DNA from: Mycobacterium gallinarum
Lineage (GTDB): Bacteria; Actinomycetota; Actinomycetes; Mycobacteriales; Mycobacteriaceae
Direction: 5' to 3'
NCBI RefSeq assembly: GCF_010726765.1
Contig: NZ_AP022601.1
Span: 434,001 to 498,000 of the forward strand
Length of the DNA: 64,000 nucleotides
Each line of letters starts with the position of its first letter. Positions within the stretch are counted from its first letter, which is position 1. The translations under genes were made by a program, and so were the position numbers. Below, piece after piece: positions 5,544 to 45,993 of this stretch. The notes beneath the pieces are model-generated. The model was not told the DNA's origin and ran no database searches. It saw nothing but the letters and a program-made list of their open reading frames with translations.

Positions 5544-5562
5544 TACGGTTAGGCATACAGTA
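5544..5562. promoter_or_regulatory. candidate operator, diverged copy of the island palindrome
   Basis: TACGGTTA-GGC-ATACAGTA matches the island consensus TACTGTAA-N3-TTACAGTA at 13 of 16 arm positions. It sits in the 75-base gap between two divergent operons (crotonase at 5518 and thioesterase at 5594), so a repressor here could control both directions. Which protein binds is inference; the TetR paralogues of this window are the best candidates. Confidence 0.5.
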
Positions 5563-5593
5563 TTGCTATCTTGTACAAGTTAGCAAGGAAAGC

Positions 5594-6283
5594 GTGCTGA
5601 CGGAACAGGCGGCAGGCGAAAGGCGATTCATGGCCAAGGGCACCCCCCGTTTCGGTGAGCAACCGCTGCCTCAGACGGTGGCTGCCGCCGGGGCGCTGCG
5701 CCGGTTGACCGGGCTGCTGTTGTCGTTGGAACACGAGCACCCGATCGTCGATGCCATGGTTGCCCAGATCGCCGAATGGGAACGCGAGCTCGCGCCCGCC
5801 ACACCGCGGGATCCCACTCCGCGCATCGGTCCGCAAAGTACCGAACAGCAACGCGTGTACCTCGACCACGCATTCGACGTCGGTGCGTACAACCCGTGCT
5901 TCCCCGAATACTGTTTCGATCACCTGGACGCCGATACCGCGTCCGGGCGCGTCACCTTCCCTGTGGTCTACGAAGGGCCGCCGGGTTTGGTCAACGGGGG
6001 GTTCCTGGCGGTGTTCTTCGACTGCATCACCCAACATCAGAGTTGCGCGTCGGGGCGCACCGGCAAGACACGCTCGCTGACGGTGACGTTCCGCCGGCCG
6101 ACCCCGGTCCTCGTCGAGCTCGGGTTCGACGTCGTTCGCGCGGAAGCTGACGGCCGGGTCATCAGCACGGCTCGCCTGCGGTACGGCGACGAGGTGTTGT
6201 GCACCGGCGAATTCAGCACGGCTGCTTCGTCACCCGACAAACTGAGCGTCTTCGACTTCGGTCACCGGCGGGCGACGGACTGA
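5594..6283 (+). CDS. PaaI-like hotdog-fold acyl-CoA thioesterase
   Basis: Likely hydrolyses acyl-CoA esters in the cytoplasm. The C-terminal half carries the hotdog signature: GLVNGGFLAVFFDCI (near residues 135-150) followed by SLTVTFRRPTPV and a strand ending in GEF. The N-terminal 90 residues are a helical extension not typical of short PaaI proteins. I start at the GTG at 5594, 5 bases after an AGGA ribosome site; an ATG at 5630 (MAKGTPRF) with AAGG upstream is the alternative. The stop overlaps the start of the next regulator gene by one base (TGATG). It may recycle CoA from dead-end pathway intermediates. Confidence 0.82.
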   Translation: MLTEQAAGERRFMAKGTPRFGEQPLPQTVAAAGALRRLTGLLLSLEHEHPIVDAMVAQIAEWERELAPATPRDPTPRIGPQSTEQQRVYLDHAFDVGAYNPCFPEYCFDHLDADTASGRVTFPVVYEGPPGLVNGGFLAVFFDCITQHQSCASGRTGKTRSLTVTFRRPTPVLVELGFDVVRAEADGRVISTARLRYGDEVLCTGEFSTAASSPDKLSVFDFGHRRATD

Positions 6284-7050
6284 TGACCAGCGTGCAGCGG
6301 ATTCGTCAGCCACGGGTCGCCGAGATCGTCGCATCGCGATTGCGTGACGAGATCCTGTCCGGGCGAATCAAAGAAGGCGACGTACTCCCGTCGCAGGACA
6401 CTCTGCTCGCGGAATTCGGTGTCAGCCCGCCTGCGCTGCGCGAGGCGATTCACATACTGGAGACCGACGGGTTGATCTCCGTGCGACGCGGGAACATGGG
6501 CGGCGCTGTCGTTCATCCGCCTTCGGCCGAGCGCACGGCGCACATGATCAGCATGGTGTTGCAGACACGGTCGGCCACACCCGCCGACGTGAGCGGCGCA
6601 TTGATGCATATCGAGCCGATCTGCGCGGGCTTGTGTGCTGCCCGTGAAGATCGCATGACGGAGGTCGTCCCGTATCTGGAGGCGGAGATCAAAACGCAGA
6701 CAGAGCAATTCGACAACCTGTCCCGCTACGTCCCCAACGCGCGCCGATTCCACGAGGCGCTGGTGTCGCGGTGTGGCAACGAGCCGATGATCCTGTTGAT
6801 CGGCTCGTTGGAGCTGATCTGGTCGGCCCACGAGTCATCGGTGTGGAGCGACGAGGGTGACCCGATGCAGCACAAGACCATGCGGGCTGCTCTTCGCGAT
6901 CACCAGCGGCTGCTGGATGCGATCCGCGACGGAAACGAGGCGCGCGCAGTGAAGCTCGCGCAGGACCATCTGTTCGCCGCCCGGCGCAACACGCTCGCGG
7001 TTGGTGCGGACAAAACCATTGAGGCCAAATTGATTTCGAATGCCGAGTGA
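6283..7050 (+). CDS. GntR/FadR-type transcriptional regulator (FCD domain)
   Basis: A 255-residue DNA-binding regulator. Residues 10-75 are a winged helix-turn-helix of the GntR family, with VLPSQDTLLAEFGVSPPALREAI holding the recognition helix and SVRRGNMGGAVV the wing. Residues 100-230 are an all-helical FCD ligand-binding domain (RRFHEALVSRCGN, DHQRLLDAIRDGN) of the kind that binds carboxylates or acyl-CoA through histidines. The start ATG overlaps the thioesterase stop. It lies inside a catabolic operon and ends 10 bases before a crotonase, so it probably senses a pathway acid or CoA ester. Targets are not known. Confidence 0.88.
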   Translation: MTSVQRIRQPRVAEIVASRLRDEILSGRIKEGDVLPSQDTLLAEFGVSPPALREAIHILETDGLISVRRGNMGGAVVHPPSAERTAHMISMVLQTRSATPADVSGALMHIEPICAGLCAAREDRMTEVVPYLEAEIKTQTEQFDNLSRYVPNARRFHEALVSRCGNEPMILLIGSLELIWSAHESSVWSDEGDPMQHKTMRAALRDHQRLLDAIRDGNEARAVKLAQDHLFAARRNTLAVGADKTIEAKLISNAE

Positions 7051-7060
7051 AGGACTTCCG

Positions 7061-9181: not shown

Positions 9182-9186
9182 ACCTT

Positions 9187-9239
9187 GCGATTTCGGTGTA
9201 GTTGGTCGCGGTGAGCGCGACCAACTACACCGAAATCGC
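9187..9239. terminator. 53-bp hairpin repeat, copy 1, between convergent genes
   Basis: Two perfect 23-base inverted arms (9187-9209 and 9217-9239) flank the 7-base loop GGTGAGC. The arms contain ATTTCGGTGTAG and its complement. The element starts 6 bases after the thiolase stop and touches the stop codon of the convergent TetR gene, so it can terminate transcription from either side. It has no U-tract. A near-identical copy lies at 40721-40773. Confidence 0.75.
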
Positions 9240-9946
9240 TAGCGTTTGCGCGCTGGCTTCTTGGCCTCGTCGATCAGCCGGCCGGCATGATCGAGGATGC
9301 ACTCGAGACCGAACTCGAAGTTCTTTTCGTCGGCCGCGCCGAGGTGGTGGCCCTTTTCGGTGACCAACGCAAGCAGCGGTGTGGATTCGCTGTCGATCGC
9401 CATGGCCTCGTCGAGATCGGCGGGACCGTCATCCGCCGCGCGGTTCTTCTCGCGCAGGCGTTGCAGCACCACCGAACCGCGGACGTGCACCGACACCGCG
9501 GAATACGTATCGAAGGCGTCATCGGCCGACAGGCCCGCCTCTGTCAGACTGGCGATCGCCTTCTCGACCTCTTGCACGCCGAGCCGCGCAGTACGGGGGC
9601 TCAGGGCGGATCGGATGAGGATCAGATCGCTGAGAATTGGGTTGCCCAGGAACGTCTTTCGCATCGAGCGGGCGTGATTGCGCAGTGTTTCGCGCCAGTC
9701 CTTCGCCTCGACGTACGGCGTCGCGAAGACGTATTGGCGTAGCGCCCGGTCGGTCATCGCGTTGAGTAGGTCGTCCTTCTTGCGGAAATACCAGTAGATG
9801 CTGGTCACGCCGACCCCGAGGTGCTTACCGAGCAGCGGCATGGACAGGTTGTCGATGCCCACTTCCTCGGCGAGTTCGAACGCACCCTTGATGATGTCGT
9901 CCGGATTGATCGACCCGCGCTCGCGCCGTGGACGCTTCTCGGCCAT
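9239..9946 (-). CDS. TetR-family regulator (paralogue of the 27697-28323 protein)
   Basis: About 235 residues. The helix-turn-helix spans residues 15-55 with NLSMPLLGKHLGVGVTSIYW as its core, followed by FRKKDDLLNAMTDRAL, which is characteristic of TetR proteins. The start at 9946 (MAEKRPRRERGS) was picked by alignment with the paralogue; an upstream in-frame ATG at 9976 and a longer reading to 10060 also exist. It is divergent from the crotonase operon at 10139, with a diverged copy of the island palindrome between them, so autoregulation and control of that operon are likely. The ligand is presumably a CoA thioester or the starting substrate. Confidence 0.88.
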   Translation of the reverse strand: MAEKRPRRERGSINPDDIIKGAFELAEEVGIDNLSMPLLGKHLGVGVTSIYWYFRKKDDLLNAMTDRALRQYVFATPYVEAKDWRETLRNHARSMRKTFLGNPILSDLILIRSALSPRTARLGVQEVEKAIASLTEAGLSADDAFDTYSAVSVHVRGSVVLQRLREKNRAADDGPADLDEAMAIDSESTPLLALVTEKGHHLGAADEKNFEFGLECILDHAGRLIDEAKKPARKR

Positions 9947-10087: not shown

Positions 10088-10106
10088 TACTGTAAGCCCT
10101 ATAGTA
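10088..10106. promoter_or_regulatory. candidate operator, diverged copy of the island palindrome
   Basis: TACTGTAA-GCC-CTATAGTA: the left arm is perfect and the right arm differs at two or three positions. It lies 33 bases before the GTG of the crotonase at 10139 and about 140 bases from the divergent TetR start. The rest of the 192-base gap (9947-10138) shows no other clear signal. Confidence 0.6.
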
Positions 10107-12151: not shown

Positions 12152-12170
12152 TACCGATAGGTGTACAGTA
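12152..12170. promoter_or_regulatory. weak copy of the island palindrome upstream of a crotonase
   Basis: TACCGATA-GGT-GTACAGTA: the right arm matches the consensus at seven of eight positions, the left arm at only five. It lies in the 89-base gap before the crotonase GTG at 12213, which suggests an internal promoter. Weak on its own; supported by the stronger copies elsewhere. Confidence 0.35.
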
Positions 12171-12212: not shown

Positions 12213-13070
12213 GTGAGCGTTGAAGACCGCGTCGCCGACCCCGTTGCCGCCCGCGAGGCCGAACCGGTGCTCTACGAGGTGCGCGATACCGGCGTCGCGG
12301 TCCTGACGCTCAACCGGCCCGAACGCATGAATGGTTGGGGTGGCGGTCTGGCCACGACGTTCTACCTGCGTCTCGACGACGCCGAGGCCGATCCCGATGT
12401 TCGTGCCATCGTCGTCACCGGCCGGGGCCGCGCCTTCTGCGCAGGCGCGGACATGGGTGATCTCAGCTCGATCAGCGCCGCCACCGTCGACGCCGCAGCG
12501 GACACCGACGTCGGCAAGTTGGTCGGTGCGCGTCATCCTCACTTCACGACCACGATGCGCAAGCCGGTCGTCGCGGCAATCAACGGCGCGTGCGCAGGCA
12601 TGGGTATGACGATGGCATTGATGTGCGATGTGCGGTTCGCTGCAGACGGTGCGAAATTCACCACGTCCTTCGCCCGACGGGGTCTGATCGCGGAGTACGG
12701 GATCTCCTGGATCCTGCCGCGCATCGTCGGTCAGGGTGTTGCACTGGACCTGCTGCTGTCCGGTCGCGTCTTCCTGGCCGACGAGGCGGCGCACCTCGGC
12801 CTGGTCAAAGAGGTCGTCGCACCAGACGAGTTGCTGCCGCGGGCGATCGCCTATGCCGAGGACATCGCCGCCAATTGCGCGCCCAGCTCGCTGGCGGTGA
12901 TCAAGCAACAGGTGTACGCAGACACCATGCGCGAAGTATTGGATGCCAGCGACGATGCCGAGAAGCTGATGCACGAATCCATGCAGCGTCCCGATTTCAT
13001 CGAAGGCATCACGAGCTTCTTCGAAAAGCGTCAGCCCAATTTCCCGCCTTTGAAAGGACAGGAATCGTGA
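12213..13070 (+). CDS. enoyl-CoA hydratase/isomerase family (crotonase)
   Basis: A 285-residue crotonase starting at GTG 12213 behind a strong GAGGAGGG site. FCAGADMGD (near 76) and NGACAGMGMTMALMCD (near 128-143) make the oxyanion hole. The first catalytic glutamate is replaced by Met/Thr (MTMAL), while the second region reads SFARRGLIAEYGISWILPR, a pattern seen in EchA proteins of uncertain reaction. The stop overlaps the start of the amidohydrolase by four bases (GTGA), so the two are translationally coupled. Confidence 0.88.
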   Translation: MSVEDRVADPVAAREAEPVLYEVRDTGVAVLTLNRPERMNGWGGGLATTFYLRLDDAEADPDVRAIVVTGRGRAFCAGADMGDLSSISAATVDAAADTDVGKLVGARHPHFTTTMRKPVVAAINGACAGMGMTMALMCDVRFAADGAKFTTSFARRGLIAEYGISWILPRIVGQGVALDLLLSGRVFLADEAAHLGLVKEVVAPDELLPRAIAYAEDIAANCAPSSLAVIKQQVYADTMREVLDASDDAEKLMHESMQRPDFIEGITSFFEKRQPNFPPLKGQES

Positions 13071-14278
13071 AAGCCCTGGACTACATGGCCATCGACGTCG
13101 ACAACCACTATTACGAGACGATCGACTCGTGCACACGCCACCTGCCCAAGGAGTTCAAGCGCCGCGGCGTGCAGATGCTGACCGAGGGCAAGCGCACGTT
13201 CGCCGTCATGGGTGGCGTGGTCAATCACTTCATCCCGAATCCGACATTTGATCCGATCATCGAACCGGGCTGCCTGGATCTGTTGTTCCGCGGCGAAATC
13301 CCCGAAGGCGTCGATCCGGCATCACTGATGAAGGTCGACCGGTTGCCCGATCATCCCGAGTATCAGAATCGCGACGCCAGGGTGAAGATTCTCGACAAGC
13401 AGAACCTCGAAACCGTATTCATGCTGCCAACTTTCGCGTGCGGCGTGGAGGAAGCCCTCAAGCACGACATCGACGCGACCATGGCCACGGTGCACGCGTT
13501 CAATCTTTGGCTGGACGAGGACTGGGGCTTCGATCGCCCCGATCACCGGTTTCTGTCGGCGCCGATCATCTCGCTGGCCGATCCGGACAAGGCTGTGGAA
13601 GAGGTCGAGTTCGTCCTGTCCCGCGGCGCCAAGAACGTCTGTGTGCGGCCCGCGCCGGTCCCGGGCCGGGTCAAGCCACGCTCTCTGGGCGACCCGTTGC
13701 ACGATCCGGTGTGGGCCCGGCTGGCCGAGGCCGGCGTTCCGGTGATCTTCCACCTGTCCGACAGCGGCTATCTCGCGATCGCGGCATTGTGGGGCGGCAA
13801 GGCCACGTTCGAGGGATTCGGCAAGAAGGATCCGTTGGACCAGGTGCTGCTCGACGACCGCGCCATCCACGACGCGATGGCCTCGATGATCGTGCATCAG
13901 GTCTTCACCCGGCACCCGAAACTCAAGGTCGCGAGCATCGAGAACGGCTCGTATTTCGTCTACCGGTTGATCAAACGGCTCAAGAAGGCTGCCAACACCG
14001 CGCCGTACCACTTCAAAGAAGATCCGGTCGAACAGCTGAAGAACAACGTCTGGATCGCGCCGTACTACGAGGACGACGTCAAGGAGCTCGCCGCAACGAT
14101 CGGTGTCGACAAGATCCTGTTCGGCTCGGACTGGCCCCACGGTGAGGGTCTGGCCGATCCGATGAACTTCACCGCCGACATCCCGCAGTTCCCCGAGTTC
14201 AGCTACGAGGACACCCGGAAGGTGATGCGCGACAACGCACTCGAACTGCTTGGTGCGAACGTGACGGCTTCCGCCTAG
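13067..14278 (+). CDS. amidohydrolase-2 family metal-dependent hydrolase/decarboxylase
   Basis: A 403-residue TIM-barrel protein of the ACMSD/amidohydrolase-2 family, which performs metal-dependent hydrolysis or non-oxidative decarboxylation of cyclic acids. The first motif IDVDNHYYE (residues 8-16) has the D-x-H pattern, FHLSDSGY (near 227) and VASIENGS (near 287) carry further ligand-side residues, and LFGSDWPHGEG (near 350) carries the catalytic Asp. Starts at GTG 13067 in a GTGA overlap; MAIDVDN at 13085 is a less likely start. One of four family members in the window, all next to CoA-ester genes. Confidence 0.87.
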   Translation: MKALDYMAIDVDNHYYETIDSCTRHLPKEFKRRGVQMLTEGKRTFAVMGGVVNHFIPNPTFDPIIEPGCLDLLFRGEIPEGVDPASLMKVDRLPDHPEYQNRDARVKILDKQNLETVFMLPTFACGVEEALKHDIDATMATVHAFNLWLDEDWGFDRPDHRFLSAPIISLADPDKAVEEVEFVLSRGAKNVCVRPAPVPGRVKPRSLGDPLHDPVWARLAEAGVPVIFHLSDSGYLAIAALWGGKATFEGFGKKDPLDQVLLDDRAIHDAMASMIVHQVFTRHPKLKVASIENGSYFVYRLIKRLKKAANTAPYHFKEDPVEQLKNNVWIAPYYEDDVKELAATIGVDKILFGSDWPHGEGLADPMNFTADIPQFPEFSYEDTRKVMRDNALELLGANVTASA

Positions 14279-14280
14279 CC

Positions 14281-15897
14281 ATGGGCGAATGGACCATCGG
14301 GGCGGTGCTCGACGCGATCGCCGAGGCCGTACCCGACCGGCTGATGACCGTCTGTGGAACACGCCGCAGCACGTTCGGCGAATCGGCGGAACGGACCCGT
14401 CGACTGGCCAATTTTCTGGCCGCCCAGGGCTTGGGCGCACACCGGGAACGGGACGAGCTGCAGAACTGGGAGTGCGGACAGGATCGCGTCGCACTGGTCA
14501 TGCACAACGATCTCTACCCCGACGCGGTCATCGGCTCGTTGAAGGCGCGAACCGTGCCGGTCAACATCAACTACAACTACGCCCCGCGCGAGGTTGCCGA
14601 ACTGCTGGAGTACCTGCAACCGCGGGCGGTGATCTATCACCGCTCGTTCGGGCCCACGTTCGCTGACGTGCTCCCGCCTGCCGCGGCGGACGTGATGATC
14701 GCGGTGGACGACGACAGCACCGTCCCGCTCCTGCCCGGCGCCATCAGCTTCGACGATGCTCTGGCGCAGGGCGATACGGACCACGATCTCGCGCCTTCAC
14801 CGGACGACGTGATGATGGTGTGCACCGGCGGGACGACCGGCCGCCCGAAGGGTGTGATGTGGCGGCAGAGCGACACCTACGTGGTGTCCATGAACGGTGC
14901 CGACCACGAGACCGTCGACGAGATTCACGCCAAGCTCGGATTCGAAGGCCAGCCGTGGTTCGCGGTGTCCCCGCTGATGCATGCGGCGGGTATGTGGACG
15001 GCATTTGCGGGACTCCTCAACGGGTTGCCGATCGTCCTCTACGACAAGACACGCTTCGACCCGCGTGCGGTACTGGAGACCGCCGAGCGTGAGAAGGTCG
15101 GGATGATGACGATGGTCGGTGACGCCTACGCGGCCCCGCTGGTGGAGGAACTGCGCGCCGGTTCCTACGATCTGTCGTCGATGTATGCGATCGGCACCGG
15201 CGGAGCGGCGACCAATCCGAAACACCAAGAGGCTCTTCTGGAATTGCTGCCGCAGATCACCCTGATCAACGGATACGGCTCGTCGGAGACCGGGAACGTG
15301 GGCTTCGGGCGCAGCCAGCACGGAGACCAGAAGGACACGTTCGTACTCAGGGAGGGCGCGCTGGTCCTGTCTGAGAACTACAGCCGCTTCCTGCAACCGG
15401 GGGAGCAGGAAGTCGGCTTCGTCGCGCGTGCGGGGCGTATCCCGCTGGGGTACTTCGACGACGAGGCCGCCACCCGCAAGACGTTCCCCGTCGTCGAGGG
15501 GCGGCGGGTGGTGATCTCCGGGGACCGTGGCTCGCTGGCTGCCGATGGCTCGCTGCAGTTGTTCGGCCGAGATTCCCTTGTCGTCAACACCGGAGGCGAG
15601 AAGGTCTTCGTCGAAGAAGTCGAGGAAGTGCTGCGCGCCTGTTCGGGCGTGGCCGACGCGTTGGTGGTCGGGCGTCCGAGCGACCGCTGGGGTGAAGAAC
15701 TCGTCGCCCTCGTGGCCCTGAAGGAGGCCGTCGATGTCACCCCGGAACAGCTTCATCGTCAGTGCACGTCGCATCTCGCGCGGTTCAAGGCGCCGAAGGA
15801 GTTCATCATCGTGGATCAGGTCCGTCGGCTCGGAAACGGTAAGCCGGACTACCGCTGGGCGAAAGCCGCTGCCGTGCAAGAGGCGTCGCTGACGTGA
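14281..15897 (+). CDS. acyl-CoA synthetase (FadD-type, WRQ subfamily)
   Basis: A 538-residue acid-CoA ligase. The P-loop reads CTGGTTGRPKGVMWRQ near residue 180, YGSSETG near 333, SGDRG for the hinge and GNGKPDYRW for the C-terminal lysine. The 'GVMWRQ' and 'DYRW' signatures are shared with the synthetase at 29793-31448, so the two are paralogues of a subfamily distinct from those at 125-3089. FadD19-type steroid side-chain ligases carry similar signatures as far as I recall, which is a hint rather than proof. Starts 2 bases after the amidohydrolase stop, and its own stop overlaps the next start (GTGA). Confidence 0.9.
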   Translation: MGEWTIGAVLDAIAEAVPDRLMTVCGTRRSTFGESAERTRRLANFLAAQGLGAHRERDELQNWECGQDRVALVMHNDLYPDAVIGSLKARTVPVNINYNYAPREVAELLEYLQPRAVIYHRSFGPTFADVLPPAAADVMIAVDDDSTVPLLPGAISFDDALAQGDTDHDLAPSPDDVMMVCTGGTTGRPKGVMWRQSDTYVVSMNGADHETVDEIHAKLGFEGQPWFAVSPLMHAAGMWTAFAGLLNGLPIVLYDKTRFDPRAVLETAEREKVGMMTMVGDAYAAPLVEELRAGSYDLSSMYAIGTGGAATNPKHQEALLELLPQITLINGYGSSETGNVGFGRSQHGDQKDTFVLREGALVLSENYSRFLQPGEQEVGFVARAGRIPLGYFDDEAATRKTFPVVEGRRVVISGDRGSLAADGSLQLFGRDSLVVNTGGEKVFVEEVEEVLRACSGVADALVVGRPSDRWGEELVALVALKEAVDVTPEQLHRQCTSHLARFKAPKEFIIVDQVRRLGNGKPDYRWAKAAAVQEASLT

Positions 15898-16730
15898 GCA
15901 CGAGAGCGATTGATTGTCTGGTCAACGTCCACTTCGGCGAGACCGAGAAGCAGCCCGAGTTCATGCTCAAGGTGCGTGACGACTACTTCAAGGGACCCCA
16001 GTCCCTCTATGACCAGGTCGAGCTCGCGCAGCTACTCGAGGAGATGGACGAGCGCGGCGTGGAGAAGGCCATCCTGATGGACAACCTGACTAAGCCGTCG
16101 GTGACGGCCCGCAAGTTCGTCGATCAGCGGCCCGACAAATTCGCCCTCGCCATGGGCGGGGTGAACCTGCTGCGCCCCATGCCGTCGCTGCGAGAACTCA
16201 CCGCCGTCGTGCGGGATATGCCGGTGGCGTATACCGCAGTGGGGCCCAGCTTTTGGGGCGACGGCCAATACCCGCCGAGCGACGCAGTGTATTACCCGCT
16301 CTACACCAAATGCGCTGAGCTCGGGCTGCCGCTGTGCGTGAACACCGGGCTGCCGGGGCCGCCGATCCCGGGGGAGGCGCAGAACCCGATTCACCTCGAC
16401 CGGGTCTGCGTGCGATTCCCCGAGTTGAAACTCTGCATGATTCACGGGGCCGACCCGTGGTGGGATGTCGCGATCCGACTGATGATCAAGTACAAGAACC
16501 TGCGACTGATGACGTCGGCGTGGTCGCCGAAGCGACTGCCGGACAGCCTGCTGCACTACATGCGCACCCGCGGACCCGACAAGGTGATCTTCGCTTCGGA
16601 CTGGCCGGTGCTGAGAATGCATCGGGTGGTGCCCGAGGCGCTGGCGCTGGACCTGCCAGCCGAGGTGCTGGACAACTACCTCTACAACAACGCACAGGAT
16701 TTCTTTTTCGGGCCCCGAGAGGAGCAGTGA
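15894..16730 (+). CDS. amidohydrolase-2 family protein
   Basis: A 278-residue member of the amidohydrolase-2 family, shorter than its neighbours (about 400). The N-terminal metal motif is DCLVNVHFG, where a D-x-H pair is usual, so metal binding at that end is uncertain. CMIHGADPWW (near 182) and IFASDWPVLRM (near 229) are conserved, with the catalytic Asp in the latter. Starts at GTG 15894, overlapping the synthetase stop. Probably a hydrolase or lyase acting in the same pathway as the synthetase and the two acyl-CoA dehydrogenases downstream. Confidence 0.82.
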   Translation: MSTRAIDCLVNVHFGETEKQPEFMLKVRDDYFKGPQSLYDQVELAQLLEEMDERGVEKAILMDNLTKPSVTARKFVDQRPDKFALAMGGVNLLRPMPSLRELTAVVRDMPVAYTAVGPSFWGDGQYPPSDAVYYPLYTKCAELGLPLCVNTGLPGPPIPGEAQNPIHLDRVCVRFPELKLCMIHGADPWWDVAIRLMIKYKNLRLMTSAWSPKRLPDSLLHYMRTRGPDKVIFASDWPVLRMHRVVPEALALDLPAEVLDNYLYNNAQDFFFGPREEQ

Positions 16731-16732
16731 CG

Positions 16733-17770
16733 ATGGACCGTTACGAACTGCGAAGGCTGGACTACAGCCTGTCGGACGACCACGAGGCGATACAGTCCGC
16801 GTATCGGGAATTCTTCAAGACTCACTGCCCGATCGAAACCGTCCGCGCCGCCGAGGAATCCGGCTTCGACAAGAGTCTGTGGGAACGCCTGTGCGCCATG
16901 GGGGCAACCAGCATGGCGCTGGCCGAATCCAGCGGAGGAGACGGCGCCACACTCGTCGACCTGACCCTGGTGGCCGAGGAACTCGGCCGGGCGCTGGCTC
17001 CGGTTCCGTGGATCGATCACATCTGTGCAGCGCGCCTGCAAGCACGGCTCGGCACGGTAGAACCCGACGTGGTCAACGGTAAGCAGCTCGTTGCGCTCGA
17101 TCCTCGACACGACAACGTGTCGGGTGTCCGGCTGATCCCGACCGGCTCGATCGCGGATCGCATCATCGTCCGCGACGGGGACGACGTGGTGTGCCTGACG
17201 TTCGGAACCCGACCGGCGAAGGTCGACAACATCGGCAAGATGCCAATGGCATGGGTCGATCCCAACGCGGCCGATGACCGTACCGTCCTGGGCAGTGGTC
17301 CGGAGGCGTTGACCGAATATCAACGTGCACTCGACGAATGGCGGGTGCTCACCGCTGCAGCGCTTGTCGGACTCGTCGAGGAGACGATGACCATCGCCGC
17401 CGAGTTCGCCAAGTCCCGCTACACACTCGGCGTCCCGATCTCGACGCTGCAGGGCATCTCGCATCCGCTCGCCAACATCGCCATCACGGTGCAGGGCGGA
17501 CGCAACCTGGCGCGGCGGGCCGCGTGGTTCCTCGACAACGAGCCCGACGAACGTCCGGAATTGGCACCGTCGGCGTTCGTGTTCATGGCCGAAGAAGCCT
17601 CGAAGGCGGCGACGATGGCGGTTCACGTTCAAGGCGGTCTTGGTGTTTCGGCCGAAGCCGCCGCCACCGCCTATCTGGTGCGGGCCCGTGGATGGTCACT
17701 GGCCGGCGGCGATCCGGGCGTCACCGCCAAGTACGTCGCCGAAATCGTCGTGGCCCGGGAAAGCAGATAG
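16733..17770 (+). CDS. acyl-CoA dehydrogenase, small subunit type
   Basis: A 345-residue acyl-CoA dehydrogenase-fold protein. The start at 16733 (MDRYELRRLDYS) follows GAGGAGCAG. It has the N-terminal helical domain and the C-terminal bundle with SRYTLGVPISTLQGISHPLA and VQGGLGVSAEAAATAYLVR, but lacks a clear FAD motif such as YTEPxGGSD. It lies directly before a 397-residue dehydrogenase. The size pair resembles the steroid-degrading alpha2beta2 dehydrogenases of mycobacteria (FadE28/FadE29 type), in which two different subunits share active sites. A heterotetramer is therefore the best guess. Confidence 0.87.
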   Translation: MDRYELRRLDYSLSDDHEAIQSAYREFFKTHCPIETVRAAEESGFDKSLWERLCAMGATSMALAESSGGDGATLVDLTLVAEELGRALAPVPWIDHICAARLQARLGTVEPDVVNGKQLVALDPRHDNVSGVRLIPTGSIADRIIVRDGDDVVCLTFGTRPAKVDNIGKMPMAWVDPNAADDRTVLGSGPEALTEYQRALDEWRVLTAAALVGLVEETMTIAAEFAKSRYTLGVPISTLQGISHPLANIAITVQGGRNLARRAAWFLDNEPDERPELAPSAFVFMAEEASKAATMAVHVQGGLGVSAEAAATAYLVRARGWSLAGGDPGVTAKYVAEIVVARESR

Positions 17771-17778
17771 GTACCGCC

Positions 17779-18972
17779 ATGGATTTTTCACGGGTCGAAC
17801 TCTCCGACGACGATCAGGCCTTCCTCGACGAGGTGCGTGGCTTCCTGCGCACCCACGTCACCGATGAGGTGATCCGCCGCGATCGCGAGACCGGCGACAA
17901 CTTCGACGAGGGTGTGCACCTCGCCCTGGGCAAAGCGGGCTACCTCGAGAAGGAATGGAAGCCGGAATCGGAGGGCGGTTTCGATCGCCTCCGGGCCCGA
18001 ATCTGGGCTCTGGAGAAGCGCCGCGCCCACGTGCCGTGGGTCACCTCGGGCACCACCGCCATGATCGCGCGCTCGGTCGAGAAGTTCGGTTCCCCCGAGC
18101 TCAAAGCCGAAGTGATGCCGCAGGTTTACAGCGGCCACGCCCGACTCTGTCTTGGATACACCGAACCCGAGGGCGGGTCCGACGTCGCGACGTGCAAGAC
18201 CCGTGCGGTGCGTGACGGCAACGGGTGGGTGATCAACGGATCGAAGATGTTCACTACCGGCGCACACAACTGCCAGTACGTCTTCCTCATCACCAACACC
18301 GATCCGACGGCGCCGAAGCACAAGAGCCTGACCATGTTTCTCGTCCCGCTCGATTCGCCCGGCATCGAGATCCAGGGCGTACGTACCGTCGACGGTGACC
18401 GCACGAACATCGTCTACTACAGCGATGTGCGCGTCGACGACAAGTACCGGCTGGGAGAGGTCAACGGCGGCTGGACGGTGGTGCGTGAACCGCTCAACGT
18501 CGAACACGGTGCGGTGGAAGCCGCGAAGGACGGTCTGCAGGATGTGTCGATCATGATGCACCAGGCCGGGTTCATGGCTGCCGCAGTCGACAAGGCGGCC
18601 GCCAAGGTCGACGAGACAGGCCCCGACGGCCGCCGCCTGATCGACGACGGTTCGGTCGCATACCGACTGGGGCGAAGCGTCGCTCGAATGGAGGCGGCCC
18701 TGAGCGCGCCGAGCATCTTCGGACGCGTCGCGCTCGCCCAGACGATGCGCGACATCTCACCGGATCTGATGGACATCCTTGGCACGGCAGCGTCACTGCC
18801 GATCGGCGCCGACGGGGCGGCCGACGACGGGGCCGCCGAGTATGTCTTCCGGTTCGCCCCGCTGGTCGGCATCTACGGTGGCACTCTCGAGGTGTTCCGA
18901 AACATGATCGCGCAGTATGTGCTTGGCCTCGGTAAACCGGCATACGCACCGGTCACCAAGAAGGCGTCGTAG
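17779..18972 (+). CDS. acyl-CoA dehydrogenase, FAD-binding subunit type
   Basis: A 397-residue acyl-CoA dehydrogenase that would introduce an alpha,beta double bond into an acyl-CoA and pass electrons to ETF. CLGYTEPEGGSD (near residue 126-137) contacts FAD, INGSKMFTTGA follows, and YGGTLEVFRNMIAQ lies near residue 372. The base position YEGT of ordinary enzymes is YGGT here, so the catalytic glutamate must come from elsewhere, as in heteromeric steroid dehydrogenases. Starts at ATG 17779, 8 bases after the partner subunit, and is followed after 1 base by an SDR. Confidence 0.9.
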   Translation: MDFSRVELSDDDQAFLDEVRGFLRTHVTDEVIRRDRETGDNFDEGVHLALGKAGYLEKEWKPESEGGFDRLRARIWALEKRRAHVPWVTSGTTAMIARSVEKFGSPELKAEVMPQVYSGHARLCLGYTEPEGGSDVATCKTRAVRDGNGWVINGSKMFTTGAHNCQYVFLITNTDPTAPKHKSLTMFLVPLDSPGIEIQGVRTVDGDRTNIVYYSDVRVDDKYRLGEVNGGWTVVREPLNVEHGAVEAAKDGLQDVSIMMHQAGFMAAAVDKAAAKVDETGPDGRRLIDDGSVAYRLGRSVARMEAALSAPSIFGRVALAQTMRDISPDLMDILGTAASLPIGADGAADDGAAEYVFRFAPLVGIYGGTLEVFRNMIAQYVLGLGKPAYAPVTKKAS

Positions 18973-18973
18973 T

Positions 18974-19984
18974 ATGCCGACGCCGCGTCGGGCTCTCGTC
19001 ATGGGGGCGAGCGGGTTCGTCGGCTCCCATGTCACTCGCAAGCTCGTCGAGCGCGGCGACGACGTGCGGGTGTACCTCCGCAAGTCCAGCAAGACGCTGG
19101 GGATCGACGACCTCGACGTCGCACGGTGCTACGGCGACCTGTACGACGAAGCGGCCTTGCGGGCTGCGATGGCCGACCGCGACGTCGTCTACTACTGCGT
19201 GGTCGACACGCGATTCCACCTGCGCGACCCAGCACCGCTTTTCGAAACGAACGTCAACTGCCTGCAACGGGTGCTCGATATCGCCACCGAGGCCGATCTG
19301 TATCGGTTCGTGTTCTGTAGCACCATCGGCACGATCGCCCTCGGCGAAGGCCGCCCGGCGACCGAAGACGATGCGTTCAATTGGCCAGGGGTGGGCGGAC
19401 CCTATATCGAGTCGCGCCGTAAGGCGGAAGATATGGTGCTGCGCTATGCCCGCGAACGGGGATTGCCTGCAATCGCGTTGAATGTGTCCAACCCGTATGG
19501 GCCGCTGGACTGGCAGCCGAATCAAGGATTGATGGTGAAACTGGCTGCCCAAGGCAAGCTTCCGGTTTTCGTCAAAGGCGTGTCCACCGAGGTCGTCGGG
19601 ATCGAAGATGTCGCCGACGCGTTCCTGCTCGCCGCCGACCACGGAAGGGTGGGAGAGCGCTACATCGTCTCCGAAACATACATGCCGATGCGGGAACTGC
19701 TGACGACCGCTGCGGACGAGGTCGGTGCGCGACCGCCGCGCTTCGGCATCCCGCTCGCGGTGATGTACGCCGCGGGCTTCCTCAACGGCGCGGTGTCCCG
19801 ACTGCTGCGACGTGATCCCGTCATCGATGTGACGGGCGTGCGTCTGCTACACACCACATCGCCTGCGGACCACGGCAAGGCGACGCGCGAACTCGGCTGG
19901 AAGCCGCGCCCTGCCGCGGAATCGATTCGCAAGGCGGCAAGGTTCCACATCGACCATGCCAAGGATGTAGCCCGCCGCGGCTGA
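18974..19984 (+). CDS. extended SDR, NAD(P)-dependent epimerase/dehydratase family
   Basis: A 336-residue extended SDR resembling 3-beta-hydroxysteroid dehydrogenase or dihydroflavonol reductase-type proteins. The nucleotide motif GASGFVG is at residues 11-17, and STIGT near 116-120 gives the catalytic Ser/Thr region. The YxxxK motif is YIESR (144-148), so arginine takes the place of the catalytic lysine although the flanking pattern YxxSxxxAE is kept. It ends the plus-strand operon. Substrate may be a hydroxyl or keto group on a cyclic intermediate. Confidence 0.87.
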   Translation: MPTPRRALVMGASGFVGSHVTRKLVERGDDVRVYLRKSSKTLGIDDLDVARCYGDLYDEAALRAAMADRDVVYYCVVDTRFHLRDPAPLFETNVNCLQRVLDIATEADLYRFVFCSTIGTIALGEGRPATEDDAFNWPGVGGPYIESRRKAEDMVLRYARERGLPAIALNVSNPYGPLDWQPNQGLMVKLAAQGKLPVFVKGVSTEVVGIEDVADAFLLAADHGRVGERYIVSETYMPMRELLTTAADEVGARPPRFGIPLAVMYAAGFLNGAVSRLLRRDPVIDVTGVRLLHTTSPADHGKATRELGWKPRPAAESIRKAARFHIDHAKDVARRG

Positions 19985-29535: not shown

Positions 29536-29579
29536 GAATGCTCCAGCATCTCCGGGTTCGGGCTTGGTCCTGCGAACAG

Positions 29580-29598
29580 TACTGTAAATCTTACAGTA
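29580..29598. promoter_or_regulatory. perfect island palindrome (operator candidate)
   Basis: TACTGTAAATCTTACAGTA, with 8-base arms separated by ATC. It lies in the promoter of the P450-TetR pair and is one of two exact copies in the window. A TetR dimer footprint of this size is typical. Confidence 0.8.
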
Positions 29599-32532: not shown

Positions 32533-33527
32533 ACAGATGCGGGAACCTCGTAAAACTGCTGCGCCCACTTCCTCAGCGCCATATAGGGTTTGGCGTCGAT
32601 TTTCGCCAGCGGCGGGTTCTCGATGTACTCCTGGTATCGCCAGATGTCGAGGTCCTCCCAGACCGTGCCGAGGAACTGCTTCTCGACGCGCTCGCGCACC
32701 TCGTCGGGCGGGATGTCGGAGGTCTCACCGTTCAGCTTGGGCCACCAGACCGAGTAGAACATCGTCGACAGCCCGTCCTCCACGGGGGTCACCGCGAAGA
32801 TCAGACGATGATTCGACTGTCCCTCGAACACGCTGATCGCGCCTCCGAGCCCGAACATATGGCTGTGGATGTGCAGCGCCATCTTGTTCGGGTCGTCGCT
32901 GCGGGCATCCGGCCAGCCGGTGAGGAACTGCCACTGCTCGTCGACGATCTTCCACTCCAGGTTCACCGGTGTCACCGTCGCGCCGTGCACGTAATGGAAG
33001 TGCGAGCTGTCCGGACCGTTCTCGGCCACGATCTGCGGGTGCACCGGCTCGTTCTCGGCACGGCGTGAAAACTCCGGGTACGGGCGGTAATACGCCGACG
33101 GGTCGGTCTCGAACTGCGGGAACGAGGTGAAGATGTCGGGCATCTCCCACTGCGGCTCCTTGCCCTGAGGCTGATGCCAGACGAAGACGCAGCCGTGCTG
33201 CTCGTTGACGGGGTACACGCGAAGCTTGAGTGCGCGGTTGGGTCGGTCGGGTTGGTACGGGATATAGCGGTTGGTCCCGTCGGGACCCCATCGCCAGCCA
33301 TGAAACGGGCACTCCACGCAGTCGCCGACCACCTTGCCGCCGTGTCCGATGTGCGCGCCGAGGTGCCTGCAGTGCGCCTGCATCACATGGAGTTCGCCGG
33401 AGTCGTCGCGATATGCGACGAGATCCTCGCCGAAGTATCGGAGGGGACGGACCTCGCCCCGCGGAAATTCGGCCGACCAGCCCACCATGAACCAGCCGGT
33501 GACCTTCCAGGTGAACGGGACCTTCAC
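32529..33527 (-). CDS. Rieske non-haem iron oxygenase, terminal oxygenase component
   Basis: A 332-residue ring-hydroxylating oxygenase. The Rieske [2Fe-2S] cluster is bound by Cys53, His55, Cys73 and His76 (CRH and CPFH). The mononuclear iron motif ENGPDSSHFHYVHG near residue 168 holds the two histidines. It looks like the KshA/KstD-associated 3-ketosteroid 9-alpha-hydroxylase oxygenase type but shorter at the end. No reductase gene is adjacent, so electrons must come from elsewhere. GTG 33527 behind GAGGAGG. A half-site of the island palindrome (33568-33575) lies upstream. Confidence 0.9.
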   Translation of the reverse strand: MKVPFTWKVTGWFMVGWSAEFPRGEVRPLRYFGEDLVAYRDDSGELHVMQAHCRHLGAHIGHGGKVVGDCVECPFHGWRWGPDGTNRYIPYQPDRPNRALKLRVYPVNEQHGCVFVWHQPQGKEPQWEMPDIFTSFPQFETDPSAYYRPYPEFSRRAENEPVHPQIVAENGPDSSHFHYVHGATVTPVNLEWKIVDEQWQFLTGWPDARSDDPNKMALHIHSHMFGLGGAISVFEGQSNHRLIFAVTPVEDGLSTMFYSVWWPKLNGETSDIPPDEVRERVEKQFLGTVWEDLDIWRYQEYIENPPLAKIDAKPYMALRKWAQQFYEVPASV

Positions 33528-33567
33528 GGCGCCTCCTCTGCCGGCAAAGCGTAGCCAACGGAAGATA

Positions 33568-33575
33568 TTACAGTA
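33568..33575. promoter_or_regulatory. half-site of the island palindrome before the Rieske gene
   Basis: TTACAGTA is exact; the expected left arm (33557-33564) matches at only four of eight positions. It lies about 40 bases before the Rieske GTG. Weak as a single site, but it is the same distance from the start as the good copies. Confidence 0.3.
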
Positions 33576-34804: not shown

Positions 34805-34823
34805 TACTGTAATCGTTACAGTA
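34805..34823. promoter_or_regulatory. perfect island palindrome (operator candidate)
   Basis: TACTGTAATCGTTACAGTA, exact in both 8-base arms, 34 bases before the GTG of the Baeyer-Villiger monooxygenase. It is identical in arms to the copy before the P450 gene 5 kb away, strongly suggesting a shared regulator. Confidence 0.8.
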
Positions 34824-34856: not shown

Positions 34857-36482
34857 GTGACCAAGCCCAGCCCTTCCCGATTCGATGCGATCGTCATCGG
34901 CGCCGGATTCTCCGGCTTGTACGCACTGCACCGGTTGCGTCAACTCGGCGTGCGGACGCGCGTGCTCGAGGCTGCCGAGGACGTCGGCGGGACGTGGCTG
35001 TTCAACCGGTATCCCGGTGCTCGATGTGACATCGAGAGCATCGAGTATTCCTACAGCTTCTCCGACGCGATCCAGCAGGAGTGGGTGTGGTCCGAGACCA
35101 TGCCGGCCCAGCCGGAAATCGAGGCCTACCTCCACTTCGTGGCCGACAAACTCGATCTGCGCCGCGATATCCGCTTCAACACCAAGGTCGTTGCGATGAC
35201 CTTCGACGAGGCCGCGGGCGAATGGCTGGTCGAAACCGAGGCCGGTGAGTCGTTGGTCGCCTCGTTCGTGGTCGCCGCATCGGGCATCCTGTCGGTGCCG
35301 CTGGACCCCGACTTTCCCGGAATGGACGCGTTCACCGGGGCGTCGTTGTTCACCGGTCACTGGCCGAAGGACGGCTTCGACGTCTCAGGTAAGCGGGTCG
35401 GTGTCATCGGCACCGGCTCGACGGGCGTTCAGTTGATCCCCGTGGTCGCCAAGCAGGCCGAACACCTCACGGTGTTTCAGCGCTCACCGGCCTACACGCT
35501 GCCGTGGGAAGTGCGTCCGTTCGACGACGGGGAGCTCGACGAGCTGAAGGCCAACTACGCCGAAATCCGCGCCGCACAAAGGGAACACGCGGTCGGGGCA
35601 GCTCGGTTGAGCGCCTTCTCGGTGTTGTTCGACATGATGGCCAAGCCGCCGTTGAAGTCGGCCTCGCGGCAGGACCAGCTGCGTGCCATCGAGGAGGGCG
35701 GCGTGATGGGCGCGCTCAGTTGGGGCGACGTCTTCTTCGACATCGAAGCCAACCGAATGGCCGCGAAGCTCTACGGCGAGGCGGTCGCCCGCATCGTCAA
35801 GGATCCCGAGACCGCGGCCTCGCTGACGCCGAGCCACCCCTTCGGCTGCAAGCGACCGATCATCGACCAGGGCTACTACGAGACGTTCAACCGCGACAAC
35901 GTGACGCTGGTCGACCTGCGCAAGGGGCCGATCGTCGAGATCACGCCGACGGGTATCCGTACCGAGCAGGGGCACCACGACCTCGATGTCATCGTCTACG
36001 CCACCGGGTTCGACGCGATGACGGGAGCGCTCACCCGGATCAATGTCCGGGGCCGCGACAGGTTGTCGTTGGCGGACTTCTGGACGTCTGAGGGGCCGTA
36101 CACCTATCTCGGGATCGCCGTCGCGGGTTTCCCGAACCTGTTCATCGTGCAGGCGCCCGGAAGCCCCTCGGCGGCAACTAATTTCGTCGCAGCACTCGAG
36201 CAGCACGTCGAGTGGATCGGCGACTGCATCGGATATCTGCGCGACAACGGCTACCGCACCATCGAGGCGTTGCCGGATGCGCAGCGTGAATGGATCGAGC
36301 ACACCACAGCGCTCGTGGCGCCGACGGTCCTGGTCGATCCGTCGTGCAACTCCTGGTACAACGGCGGCAACGTCCCCGGGAAGAAGCGGATGTACATGGG
36401 CTACACGGCGGGCATCCCGGAGTACCGCAAGCGGTGCGACGAGATCGCGGACGCCGGCTACTCGGGTTTCAAGCTCGCATGA
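34857..36482 (+). CDS. flavin-containing Baeyer-Villiger-type monooxygenase
   Basis: A 541-residue class B flavoprotein monooxygenase that would insert oxygen next to a ketone using NADPH and FAD. The FAD motif GAGFSG is at residues 15-20, the NADPH motif GTGSTG near 185-190, and the second signature GGTWLFNRYPGARCD (44-58) is complete. The FxGxxxHxxxWP fingerprint reads FTGASLFTGHWP (159-170), so the histidine is phenylalanine (165). Ketones of cyclic terpenoids or steroids are typical substrates. The perfect operator precedes it and the hydrolase follows with ATGA overlap. Confidence 0.92.
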   Translation: MTKPSPSRFDAIVIGAGFSGLYALHRLRQLGVRTRVLEAAEDVGGTWLFNRYPGARCDIESIEYSYSFSDAIQQEWVWSETMPAQPEIEAYLHFVADKLDLRRDIRFNTKVVAMTFDEAAGEWLVETEAGESLVASFVVAASGILSVPLDPDFPGMDAFTGASLFTGHWPKDGFDVSGKRVGVIGTGSTGVQLIPVVAKQAEHLTVFQRSPAYTLPWEVRPFDDGELDELKANYAEIRAAQREHAVGAARLSAFSVLFDMMAKPPLKSASRQDQLRAIEEGGVMGALSWGDVFFDIEANRMAAKLYGEAVARIVKDPETAASLTPSHPFGCKRPIIDQGYYETFNRDNVTLVDLRKGPIVEITPTGIRTEQGHHDLDVIVYATGFDAMTGALTRINVRGRDRLSLADFWTSEGPYTYLGIAVAGFPNLFIVQAPGSPSAATNFVAALEQHVEWIGDCIGYLRDNGYRTIEALPDAQREWIEHTTALVAPTVLVDPSCNSWYNGGNVPGKKRMYMGYTAGIPEYRKRCDEIADAGYSGFKLA

Positions 36483-40773: not shown

Positions 40774-40779
40774 AAAGAG

Positions 40780-42276: not shown

Positions 42277-42343
42277 GCGCTCTTCCTGTCGTTGAAAGGC
42301 GATCGTCGCACCGGCATGTTCACGTTGACCATACTGAATTGCT

Positions 42344-42351
42344 TACTGTAG
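42344..42351. promoter_or_regulatory. half-site of the island palindrome in a divergent promoter
   Basis: TACTGTAG, with no recognisable right arm at the expected spacing. It lies 12 bases before the LLM start at 42363 and 68 bases from the carboxyltransferase start. Confidence 0.3.
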
Positions 42352-43410: not shown

Positions 43411-44646
43411 ATGGCCACCCGGATCATGGATGAAGCCGCGAAGGTGTTCGCGACCCCGCGGGCGTACACCGACGAGACCAAGCTGCACGCCGCACTGACG
43501 CATCTGCGCGCGAACGCTCCTGTGTCATGGGTAGACGTACCGGACTACCGGCCGTTCTGGGCGATCACCAAGCACGCCGACATCATGGCGATCGAACGGG
43601 CGAACACGTTGTTCACCAACTCGCCGCGTCCCGTGCTGACCACCGCTGCCGGCGATGATCAGCAGGCTGCAATCGGGGTCAAAACCCTGATTCATCAAGA
43701 TGATCCGGAGCACCGCGCCATCCGGGCCATCGGAGCCGACTGGTTCCGGCCGAAAGCCATGCGTGCGCTGAAGGTGCGTATCGACGAGCTCGCCAAGCGC
43801 TACGTCGACCAGATGGTTGCGGCGGGACCGGAATGCGACTTCGTCCAAGAAGTCGCGGTGAATTATCCGCTCTACGTGATCATGTCGATGCTCGGCATTC
43901 CCGAATCCGACTTTCCGCAGATGTTGAAGTACACACAGGAGCTGTTCGGAACCGACGACGAGGAGATGCAGCGTAGTTCGTCCATCGAGGAATCCATGGG
44001 TGTGCTGCTCGAGATGTTCGCCTACTTCAACGAATTGACCGCGGCGCGTCGCGCGACGCCTACCGAGGATCTGGCCTCAGCGATCGCGAACGCCACGATC
44101 GACGGTGAACCGCTGTCCGACATCGATACCGTGTCCTACTACCTGATCATCGCGACCGCCGGTCACGACACCACCAGCGCCGTGATCTCAGGCGGACTTC
44201 ACGCGCTGATCGACCATCCAGATCAGTTGCAGCGCCTACGCGACAACATGGATCTCATGCCGTTGGCCACCGAGGAAATGATTCGCTGGGTCACGCCGGT
44301 CAAGGAGTTCATGCGCACCGCGCAGCAAGACACCGAGGTGCGCGGTGTCCCTATCGCGGCAGGGGAGTCGGTACTGCTGTCGTATGTCTCGTCGAATCGC
44401 GATGAAGACGTTTTCGACGAACCGTTCGCATTCGACGTGGGACGTGAGCCGAACAAGCACAACGCATTCGGCTACGGCGTGCACTTCTGTCTGGGCGCGG
44501 CGCTGGCCCGGATGGAGGTCAACAGTTTCTTCTCCGAGCTGGTACCCCGGCTGGACTCGATAGAACTGACCGGCGATCCTGCGTATACCGCAACGGTCTT
44601 CGTCGGCGGTCCCAAACACCTGCCGATCCGCTACTCGCTCAAATGA
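43411..44646 (+). CDS. cytochrome P450
   Basis: A 411-residue P450 and not a near relative of the one at 28327. The I-helix motif AGHDTT is near residue 251, ExxR is EEMIR near 287, and the haem ligand is Cys360 in FGYGVHFCLG. Typical soluble bacterial monooxygenase for hydrophobic substrates. Translated just after the LLM gene. The stop is 9 bases from the stop of the convergent amidohydrolase. Redox partner genes are not in the immediate vicinity. Confidence 0.93.
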   Translation: MATRIMDEAAKVFATPRAYTDETKLHAALTHLRANAPVSWVDVPDYRPFWAITKHADIMAIERANTLFTNSPRPVLTTAAGDDQQAAIGVKTLIHQDDPEHRAIRAIGADWFRPKAMRALKVRIDELAKRYVDQMVAAGPECDFVQEVAVNYPLYVIMSMLGIPESDFPQMLKYTQELFGTDDEEMQRSSSIEESMGVLLEMFAYFNELTAARRATPTEDLASAIANATIDGEPLSDIDTVSYYLIIATAGHDTTSAVISGGLHALIDHPDQLQRLRDNMDLMPLATEEMIRWVTPVKEFMRTAQQDTEVRGVPIAAGESVLLSYVSSNRDEDVFDEPFAFDVGREPNKHNAFGYGVHFCLGAALARMEVNSFFSELVPRLDSIELTGDPAYTATVFVGGPKHLPIRYSLK

Positions 44647-44655
44647 TCTGAGCGC

Positions 44656-45951
44656 TCACTTCTGCGGCGCGGTCGCCCGGTTCAGCTGGTCCTGCAACGT
44701 GGTCGCGCCCAGGCTCGAGTCCTTCTTGTGGTGCGACAGTGCCTGGATGGAGACATCGTGGCCTTCCGCCGCCTTGCGCAGGGCGCCGACCGTCGCCTGC
44801 TCCTTGGAAATGTGACTGAATGGGTCGAAGTTGTACCAGCGCATGGCGTTCTCGTAGGTCATCTTGTTGATCTCGACGTCGGTGGCGTGATGCTCCTTGA
44901 GGACCTCGTCGAGTTGCTCCGGGGCGCCGGGCCACATCGAGTCGCTGTGCGGGTAGTCGGCTTCCCAGCAGATGTTGTCGATACCGATCTGGTTGCGCAG
45001 TGCCACGCCGACCGGATCGGAGATGAAGCAGGTCAAGAAATGGTCGCGGAACACCTCGGAAGGTTTCTGCTTGCCGAAGTCCTGGCCCGTCCAGGTGGAG
45101 TGCATCTCATAGGTGCGATCGGCGCGGTCCAGGAAGTAGGGGATCCACCCGGTGCCGCCCTCGCTCAGGGCGATCTTGAGGCCGGGATATTTCTTGATCG
45201 GCTTGGACCACAAGAGGTCCGCGGCGGCCTGCACGATGTTCATGGGCTGCAGCGTGATCATCACGTCCATCGGGGCGTCAGCTGCGGTGATGGCAAGCTT
45301 CCCCGAGGAACCGATGTGCACGTTCATCACGGTGTCGGTGTCGACGAGGGCCTCCCACATCGGCGTCCAGTAGTCGTCGTGGAACGACGGATAACCCATC
45401 GCGGCGGGGTTTTCACTGAATGTGAGTGCGTGGACGCCGCGTTCGGCGTTGCGGCGGATCTCTTTGGCGCAGGCTTCGGCGTCCCAGATGACCGGCAAAG
45501 TCATTGGGATGAACCGGGCTGGATAGGCGCCGCACCACTCTTCGACGTGCCAGTCGTTGTAGGCCTGTACCAGCGCCACGCTGAACTCGGGATCCTCGGT
45601 GGCGAACAATCGGCCGGCGAAACCACAGAAGGTGGGGAAGCAGATGGAACCGAGGATGCCGCCGGCGTTCATGTCCTTGACCCGCTCGTCGACCTGCCAG
45701 CAGCCGGGCCGGATCTCGTCGAGACCCTGCGGCTCCAGTCCGTACTCCTCCTTCGGCCGGCCGGCCACCGCGTTGAGCGCGACGTTTGGGATGACCACAT
45801 CGCGAAACTGCCAGGTGTCTGACCCATCGGGGTTGTGCACCAGCCGTGGCGCCTCGTCGAGGTATTTCTTGGCCAGATGATTTTTGAACATGTCCGGGGG
45901 TTCGACGATGTGATCGTCAACGCTGATCAAAATCATGTCGTCCTTGTTCAC
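44656..45951 (-). CDS. amidohydrolase-2 family metal-dependent hydrolase/decarboxylase
   Basis: A 431-residue amidohydrolase-2 protein, the longest of the four. SVDDHIVEPPDMF (residues 10-22) has the D-x-H metal motif; ENPAAMGYPSFHDDYW and NVHIGSSGK are mid-barrel and WEADYPHSDS carries the catalytic Asp. About 60 extra C-terminal residues are low-complexity and charged. ATG 45951. A diverged copy of the island palindrome lies 24 bases upstream. Stand-alone, convergent with the P450. Confidence 0.87.
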   Translation of the reverse strand: MNKDDMILISVDDHIVEPPDMFKNHLAKKYLDEAPRLVHNPDGSDTWQFRDVVIPNVALNAVAGRPKEEYGLEPQGLDEIRPGCWQVDERVKDMNAGGILGSICFPTFCGFAGRLFATEDPEFSVALVQAYNDWHVEEWCGAYPARFIPMTLPVIWDAEACAKEIRRNAERGVHALTFSENPAAMGYPSFHDDYWTPMWEALVDTDTVMNVHIGSSGKLAITAADAPMDVMITLQPMNIVQAAADLLWSKPIKKYPGLKIALSEGGTGWIPYFLDRADRTYEMHSTWTGQDFGKQKPSEVFRDHFLTCFISDPVGVALRNQIGIDNICWEADYPHSDSMWPGAPEQLDEVLKEHHATDVEINKMTYENAMRWYNFDPFSHISKEQATVGALRKAAEGHDVSIQALSHHKKDSSLGATTLQDQLNRATAPQK

Positions 45952-45974
45952 GGCGGCGCTCCTTTGTAGTTGCT

Positions 45975-45993
45975 TACCGTATGACCGACAGTT
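45975..45993. promoter_or_regulatory. candidate operator, diverged copy of the island palindrome
   Basis: TACCGTAT-GAC-CGACAGTT matches 11 of 16 arm positions of the consensus. It is upstream of the amidohydrolase start at 45951, within the 111-base gap to the divergent AhpD-like gene. Confidence 0.4.

Follow-up and report, generated by a model that had tools for sequence, protein, structure and literature searches.

We analysed a 64,000-nucleotide (nt) stretch of Mycobacterium gallinarum DNA (contig NZ_AP022601.1, positions 434,001 to 498,000; hereafter the window), in which a catabolic island carries repeated copies of a 19-bp palindrome, TACTGTAA-N3-TTACAGTA. The gene runs led by such a site encode six enoyl-CoA hydratase-like proteins, ligases, a thiolase, amidohydrolase-2 proteins and a DHDPS-like protein, and further a pair of acyl-CoA dehydrogenases, a KshA-like Rieske oxygenase, a Baeyer-Villiger monooxygenase (BVMO) and the P450 proteins P450a and P450b (Table 1). 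A Pfam search of 50 open reading frames (ORFs) of the window, in which the region beyond 49.5 kb was hardly covered, detected three TetR genes and one GntR gene; an earlier, sequence-only reading of this DNA had spoken of two TetR proteins, and two of the three do fit as readers of the palindrome. Judged from sequence, the palindrome is very probably the operator of one catabolic regulon, with TetR1 as the predicted repressor at ten promoters and TetR2 likely to use the same sites.

Table 1. Predicted operators and principal genes of the island, in window coordinates (aa, amino acids; distances are to the gene start).
Feature	Position	Strand	Mismatches	Matrix score	Context
Predicted operator	5544..5562		3	23.1	between ECH3-ECH2-ECH1-FACL2-FACL1 (-) and unassigned gene, GntR, ECH4 (+)
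Predicted operator	10088..10106		2	26.9	32 nt before ECH5 (+), 141 nt before TetR1 (-)
Predicted operator	12152..12170		4	15.8	42 nt before ECH6-AMH1-FACL3-AMH2-ACAD1-ACAD2-EPIM (+)
Predicted operator	23226..23244		1	31.0	between thiolase/SDR/amidohydrolase (-) and molybdopterin oxidoreductase nar (+)
Predicted operator	27559..27577		2	27.1	17 nt before CoA-transferase (-)
Predicted operator	29580..29598		perfect	34.2	44 nt before P450a-TetR2 (-)
Predicted operator	33557..33575		4	20.8	29 nt before Rieske-isochorismatase-4HBT-ligase (-)
Predicted operator	34805..34823		perfect	33.6	33 nt before BVMO and next gene, a weak alpha/beta-hydrolase match (+)
Predicted operator	42332..42350		3	24.2	between carboxyltransferase (-) and LLM2-P450b (+; LLM2 start uncertain)
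Predicted operator	45975..45993		5	14.7	weakest; between amidohydrolase AMH4 (-) and CMD (+)
TetR1	9239..9946	-			235 aa, TetR_N + TetR_C_1; proposed main repressor
TetR2	27697..28323	-			208 aa, TetR1 paralogue, downstream of P450a
P450a	28327..29535	-			proposed regulated gene
BVMO	34857..36482	+			proposed regulated gene; best PDB matches phenylacetone and steroid monooxygenases
KshA-like Rieske oxygenase	32529..33527	-			proposed regulated gene
P450b	43411..44646	+			nearest P450terp; downstream of LLM2
ECH6 to EPIM same-strand run	12213..19984	+			includes paired acyl-CoA dehydrogenases

The palindrome is present at all eight positions that the sequence-only reading had named, the perfect copies at 29580 and 34805 as well as the near-perfect and diverged ones. 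Allowing up to three mismatches, seven sites were found in the window and none in 100 shuffles. A symmetrical 28-bit matrix was built from 67 distinct sites in 25 regions of 19 other genomes; its scan of the window returned exactly ten sites scoring 14.7-34.2, the next best reaching 3.4, a result whose independence is partial in that the training sites had been found via the consensus of the earlier reading (up to three mismatches). In 200 simulated windows, generated as first-order Markov copies of the original, sites scoring at least 12 numbered 0.015 on average and one at most. The exact words TACAGTA and TACTGTA together occur 11 times in the window, always inside a site; the site at 45975 has no such word. 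What had been taken for half-sites before the Rieske and LLM genes are the whole sites at 33557 and 42332, and a further half-site, placed before the terminal SDR gene, was not found among the exact words, the search having been for these and not for mismatched half-sites.

The genome-wide search used a mismatch pattern and a relaxed pattern, and the matrix was then applied to the pattern matches. With up to three mismatches the 6.3-Mb genome gave eight matches (reversed pattern, five), of which seven belong to the island and the remaining one is contained in ORFs measuring up to 571 aa. Fifteen matches were obtained with the relaxed pattern (backward control, two), eight in the island and seven outside, the latter with scores from -9.4 to 15.1. 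Only one of these exceeds 12; this match, at C1:1377836 (15.1), sits within an ORF and is taken as chance.

Large parts of the island recur in other mycobacteria and are rearranged in other genera of the family. Among orthologous mycobacterial loci, sampled as the best 80 of 372 relatives, 77 have a site scoring at least 10 in the 330 nt that precede TetR1, and the first 330 nt of the TetR1 gene hold no site in any of the 80. In stretches centred on the site (n=73), identity is 96% in the arms, 60% in the spacer and 46-47% in the flanks, a footprint-like pattern. The earlier reading was to be abandoned if the motif proved equally frequent inside genes; none of the 228 sites scoring at least 12 in the 80 loci falls inside an annotated gene, defined here as a match to a window protein less 30 nt at each end, though annotated genes cover 83% of the DNA. 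The 25 regions tell the same: their 80 sites (up to three mismatches) include none in an annotated gene, with 74 at most 400 nt upstream of the counterpart of a window gene and six not so placed.

Recurrence at single promoters was counted as a site scoring at least 12 within 250 nt upstream of the gene in relatives, and the counts, which are biased upward because nearly all of the 25 regions had been selected for carrying the motif, were 15/15 for ECH6, 6/6 for the carboxyltransferase, 7/8 for nar, 12/14 for P450a, 7/10 for BVMO, 12/18 for TetR1, 7/11 for the CoA-transferase, 7/12 for the Rieske gene, 7/14 for thiolase THL2, 2/4 for ECH3, 2/5 for each of ECH5 and LLM2 and 2/4 for P450b. Inner genes of the runs are mostly site-free (AMH2 0/16, ACAD1 0/16, ACAD2 0/17, AMH1 1/16, FACL3 1/15). 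The result for nar corrects the earlier statement that no palindrome precedes this gene, since the gap between the divergent thiolase and nar genes contains the site at 23226, only 2 nt ahead of one of the possible starts of nar. That the MHS transporter, ligase and DUF2510 genes have no site directly before them was confirmed, but all four ligases stand further down same-strand runs that start at one. No site was found, either in the window or in the relatives examined, before the ecdysteroid-kinase-like (0/5), SnoaL (0/8), LLM1 (0/8) and TetR3 (0/4) genes, so that the description of the palindrome as marking a whole island was slightly too wide. The site-free ecdysteroid-kinase-like, SnoaL-like and F420-type LLM genes occupy 38258-40724.

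Nine of 143 strong sites (relatives and window together) have a second site, scoring at least 15, exactly 12 bp away with the middle half-site in common; local shuffles gave a mean of 0.26 such double sites and a maximum of two. Operators of 31 bp with three half-sites, overlapping in 12-bp steps, were observed in other genera (loci L188, L189, L190, L191 and L192). The nearest case of a 12-bp step in the window, at 29568, scores only 0.5.

Both candidate readers exceed the 24-bit cut-off for the TetR_N helix-turn-helix (TetR1 49.9 bits, TetR2 39.4 bits). TetR1 also carries a TetR-type C-terminal domain (TetR_C_1, 51.9 bits, cut-off 21), and in the window copy of TetR2 no TetR C-terminal domain reaches its Pfam cut-off. 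The two proteins are 51% identical over their alignment and 56% over 167 aa, with the recognition helix VGVTSIYWYF in common; of 14 helix regions printed from the own genome, one of them plainly misaligned, GVTSIYWYF occurs only in TetR1 and TetR2, the closest other being AVTSIYWHI. The nearest named relative of TetR1 is a protein of M. tusciae DSM 44338 (100% over residues 2-235), and TetR2 is 89% identical to the TetR2 of another M. tusciae record. The end of the TetR2 gene (27697-27760) is unlike its relatives of about 213 aa, as if in another frame, the best matches covering 93% of the query. Plasmid searches with TetR1 and AMH1 yielded only matches below 60% identity among the records listed.

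Of 201 genomes compared within the family, 29 encode a homologue of TetR1 (E up to 1e-20) and 19, the own genome included, have the motif (up to one mismatch). Every motif genome belongs to the 29, and the motif is absent from the remaining 172 (Fisher p = 1e-19, shared ancestry ignored); outside the genus the homologue is found in 6/6 motif genomes versus 9/180 others (p = 9e-8, shared ancestry again ignored). Each of the ten TetR1 genomes in which the motif is missing at this stringency has at least one site scoring at least 16.5 in the approximately 20 kb around the gene, and in such stretches sites accompany homologues down to 36% protein identity. The homologues near sites have the helix GVTSIYWYF or one that differs in one or two residues. 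The low-identity paralogues in genomes G174 (40%) and G119 (39%) have no site in their 20 kb, and their helices, GVTSLYWYF and GVASMYWYF respectively, are little different; as far as these sequences go, the recognition helix alone does not predict the presence of sites. Comparison of this kind is what establishes the sites, the degree to which they are conserved and their association with the TetR1 subfamily.

The distance from site to gene start is 17-69 nt for twelve of the 15 starts listed; it is 141 nt for TetR1 and 2 nt for nar, and the uncertain start of LLM2 overlaps the site. Both arms of the palindrome contain TANNNT, the usual form of the mycobacterial -10 element, and because each arm thereby holds a possible -10, binding would block the polymerase. 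We infer that a TetR1 dimer would bind the palindrome at the ten promoters and repress by covering the core promoter, and that its release would be brought about by an intermediate of the pathway, probably either an alicyclic ketone or a CoA ester. TetR2, with the same DNA-reading helix, should bind the same sites and add feedback or a second ligand; feedback would arise because TetR2 sits behind P450a under the site at 29580. The proposal of a single regulon is supported by confinement to the island, absence from annotated genes, footprint-like conservation, recurrence at orthologous promoters and co-occurrence with the TetR1 family, and as a predicted TetR regulon the system is well supported.

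A number of observations weigh against this assignment. Autoregulation of TetR1 is uncertain because its start is 141 nt from the site, and three of the 80 orthologous loci (L039, L061 and L070) have no site scoring at least 10 upstream of TetR1. The C-terminus of the window TetR2 deviates from its relatives, and of 14 genomes of the genus that have TetR1, only 5 contain a second, TetR2-like copy. A homologue in G162 with the helix GVTSLYWHF has a site of score 16.5, and that of G174 with GVTSLYWYF has none; G162 also encodes another TetR homologue, of 31% identity. The site at 45975 (14.7) scores below the presumed chance match in the genome, and AMH4 has a site in only one of two relatives. 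Finally, distant TetRs such as TetR3 escape the own-genome search with TetR1, in which TetR1 and TetR2 are the only ones of 28 matches (E up to 1) whose 3-kb loci contain a site.

The motif could instead be read by another regulator of the island, namely GntR (6283) or TetR3 (37572), or by an unlinked factor. Both genes do lie inside the island, GntR behind the site at 5544, but 18 of 66 ECH3 loci have no GntR match and 10 of these 18 keep a site scoring at least 12 before ECH3, TetR3 is site-free in the relatives counted above, each of the two regulators has a different palindrome beside the promoter of its own gene run, and the motif tracks TetR1 across genera; we consider such a reader highly unlikely. 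It is also very improbable that the palindrome is the motif X described for Mycobacterium sp. VKM Ac-1817D. The text of PMC6593523 presents motif X as a predicted TetR palindrome before phytosterol-induced P450, SDR and TetR genes of a mycobacterium, a setting similar to the present one, but in the passages concerned it is assigned to another TetR, of the Rv0767c type, and two of its occurrences have a KstR site next to them; the distinction follows the description and not the motif letters. Moreover, 26 other TetR-like loci examined in the own genome gave no further site, and a single pattern match above 12, the one in an ORF, was found outside the island. An identity of the element as structural repeat or mobile-element remnant, which a perfect inverted repeat with many copies in one region might suggest, is extremely improbable in view of strong conservation limited to the arms with variable spacer and flanks, the avoidance of annotated genes and its occurrence in genera with different gene orders.

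The TetR1 regulon thus predicted shares with those of KstR and KstR2 the use of TetR repressors in mycobacteria and their relatives, the ring-catabolic gene clusters and palindromes near gene starts, and differs from them in its 19-bp box, its TetR_C_1-type protein and its two paralogues. The relevant passages of PMC1995591 and PMC3068626 give 14-bp boxes, TnnAACnnGTTnnA for KstR and AnCAAGnnCTTGnT for KstR2, and place the palindrome 22-82 nt from the start of five KstR2-controlled genes. Neither the KstR box TnnAACnnGTTnnA nor the KstR2 box AnCAAGnnCTTGnT occurs in the window, in agreement with the earlier remark that the motif differs from both. BkaR, in the part of PMC3920632 that deals with it, is likewise a TetR repressor with a palindrome and acyl-CoA genes, and its core, GTTA(N)T(N4)A(N)TAAC, is absent from the window at up to one mismatch. 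The TetRs of tetracycline resistance have the same kind of Pfam domain pair as TetR1, whose best PDB matches are 9dt3 (sulfonylurea repressor EsR) and 5mru (TetR class A); TetR1 differs in reaching 87.6 of 265 bits, far under the cut-off of the NCBIfam model of the tetracycline repressor, and in its catabolic neighbours. According to the passages available, CYP108J1 of Rhodococcus sp. P14 is paired with another regulator, NarL, and another operator (PMC7037279), Rhodococcus CYP108 enzymes act on p-cymene, limonene and terpineols, with no regulon named in those passages of the review (PMC11279926), and a survey of mycobacterial TetRs gives its motifs as logos (PMC4482099). Neither motif nor regulon was met in the papers and passages that the text searches listed, figures and supplements and the greater part of the subscription literature lying beyond their reach.

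The analysis thus proposes an operator and a pair of regulators for this catabolic island, which is some 46 kb long. It is quite possible, if not probable, that this is a third large mycobacterial regulon of ring catabolism beside KstR and KstR2, with an alicyclic or terpenoid-like substrate, two paralogous repressors and one operator code, together with 31-bp three-half-site operators in 12-bp steps in related genera. The substrate question and the double repressor are its interesting part, and the operator would offer a direct handle for finding the substrate, which annotation alone has not given.

The gene content fits an alicyclic, terpenoid- or steroid-like substrate. Steroid-like chemistry is considered because of the KshA-like Rieske oxygenase, the BVMO and the acyl-CoA dehydrogenase pair, whose member ACAD2 comes closest to Tcur3483, an enzyme of the FadE26-27-like type. 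Terpenoids come into consideration because P450b is nearest P450terp (332 bits, followed by a CYP125 ancestral construct with 318 bits) and because AMH1, after its near-relative 4dzi, weakly matches DitZ and PtmU3. Polycyclic aromatic hydrocarbons were considered on account of the DHDPS-like aldolase, which matches PhdJ weakly. For P450a, the sequence search of the PDB gave no telling neighbour. An NCBIfam search of the window proteins returned the locus names MSMEG_2249 and MSMEG_2256.

Other palindromes were noted around the remaining regulators. A 24-bp palindrome, TTGCTATCTTGTACAAGTTAGCAA, adjoins the site at 5544 (5563-5586) and is possibly the operator of the GntR/FCD gene at 6283-7050; its 10-bp core, one mismatch allowed, recurs in 29 of the 48 loci that have GntR and in 2 of the 18 that lack it, relatedness ignored. 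The gene at 5630-6283, between the site at 5544 and GntR, has no Pfam match. By eye, a palindrome CAACTA-TGT-TAGTTG was seen at 38212-38226, between TetR3 and the ecdysteroid-kinase-like gene, as a possible TetR3 operator. Similar long, terminator-like hairpins lie at 9184-9242 and 40720-40774, at the ends of convergent genes.

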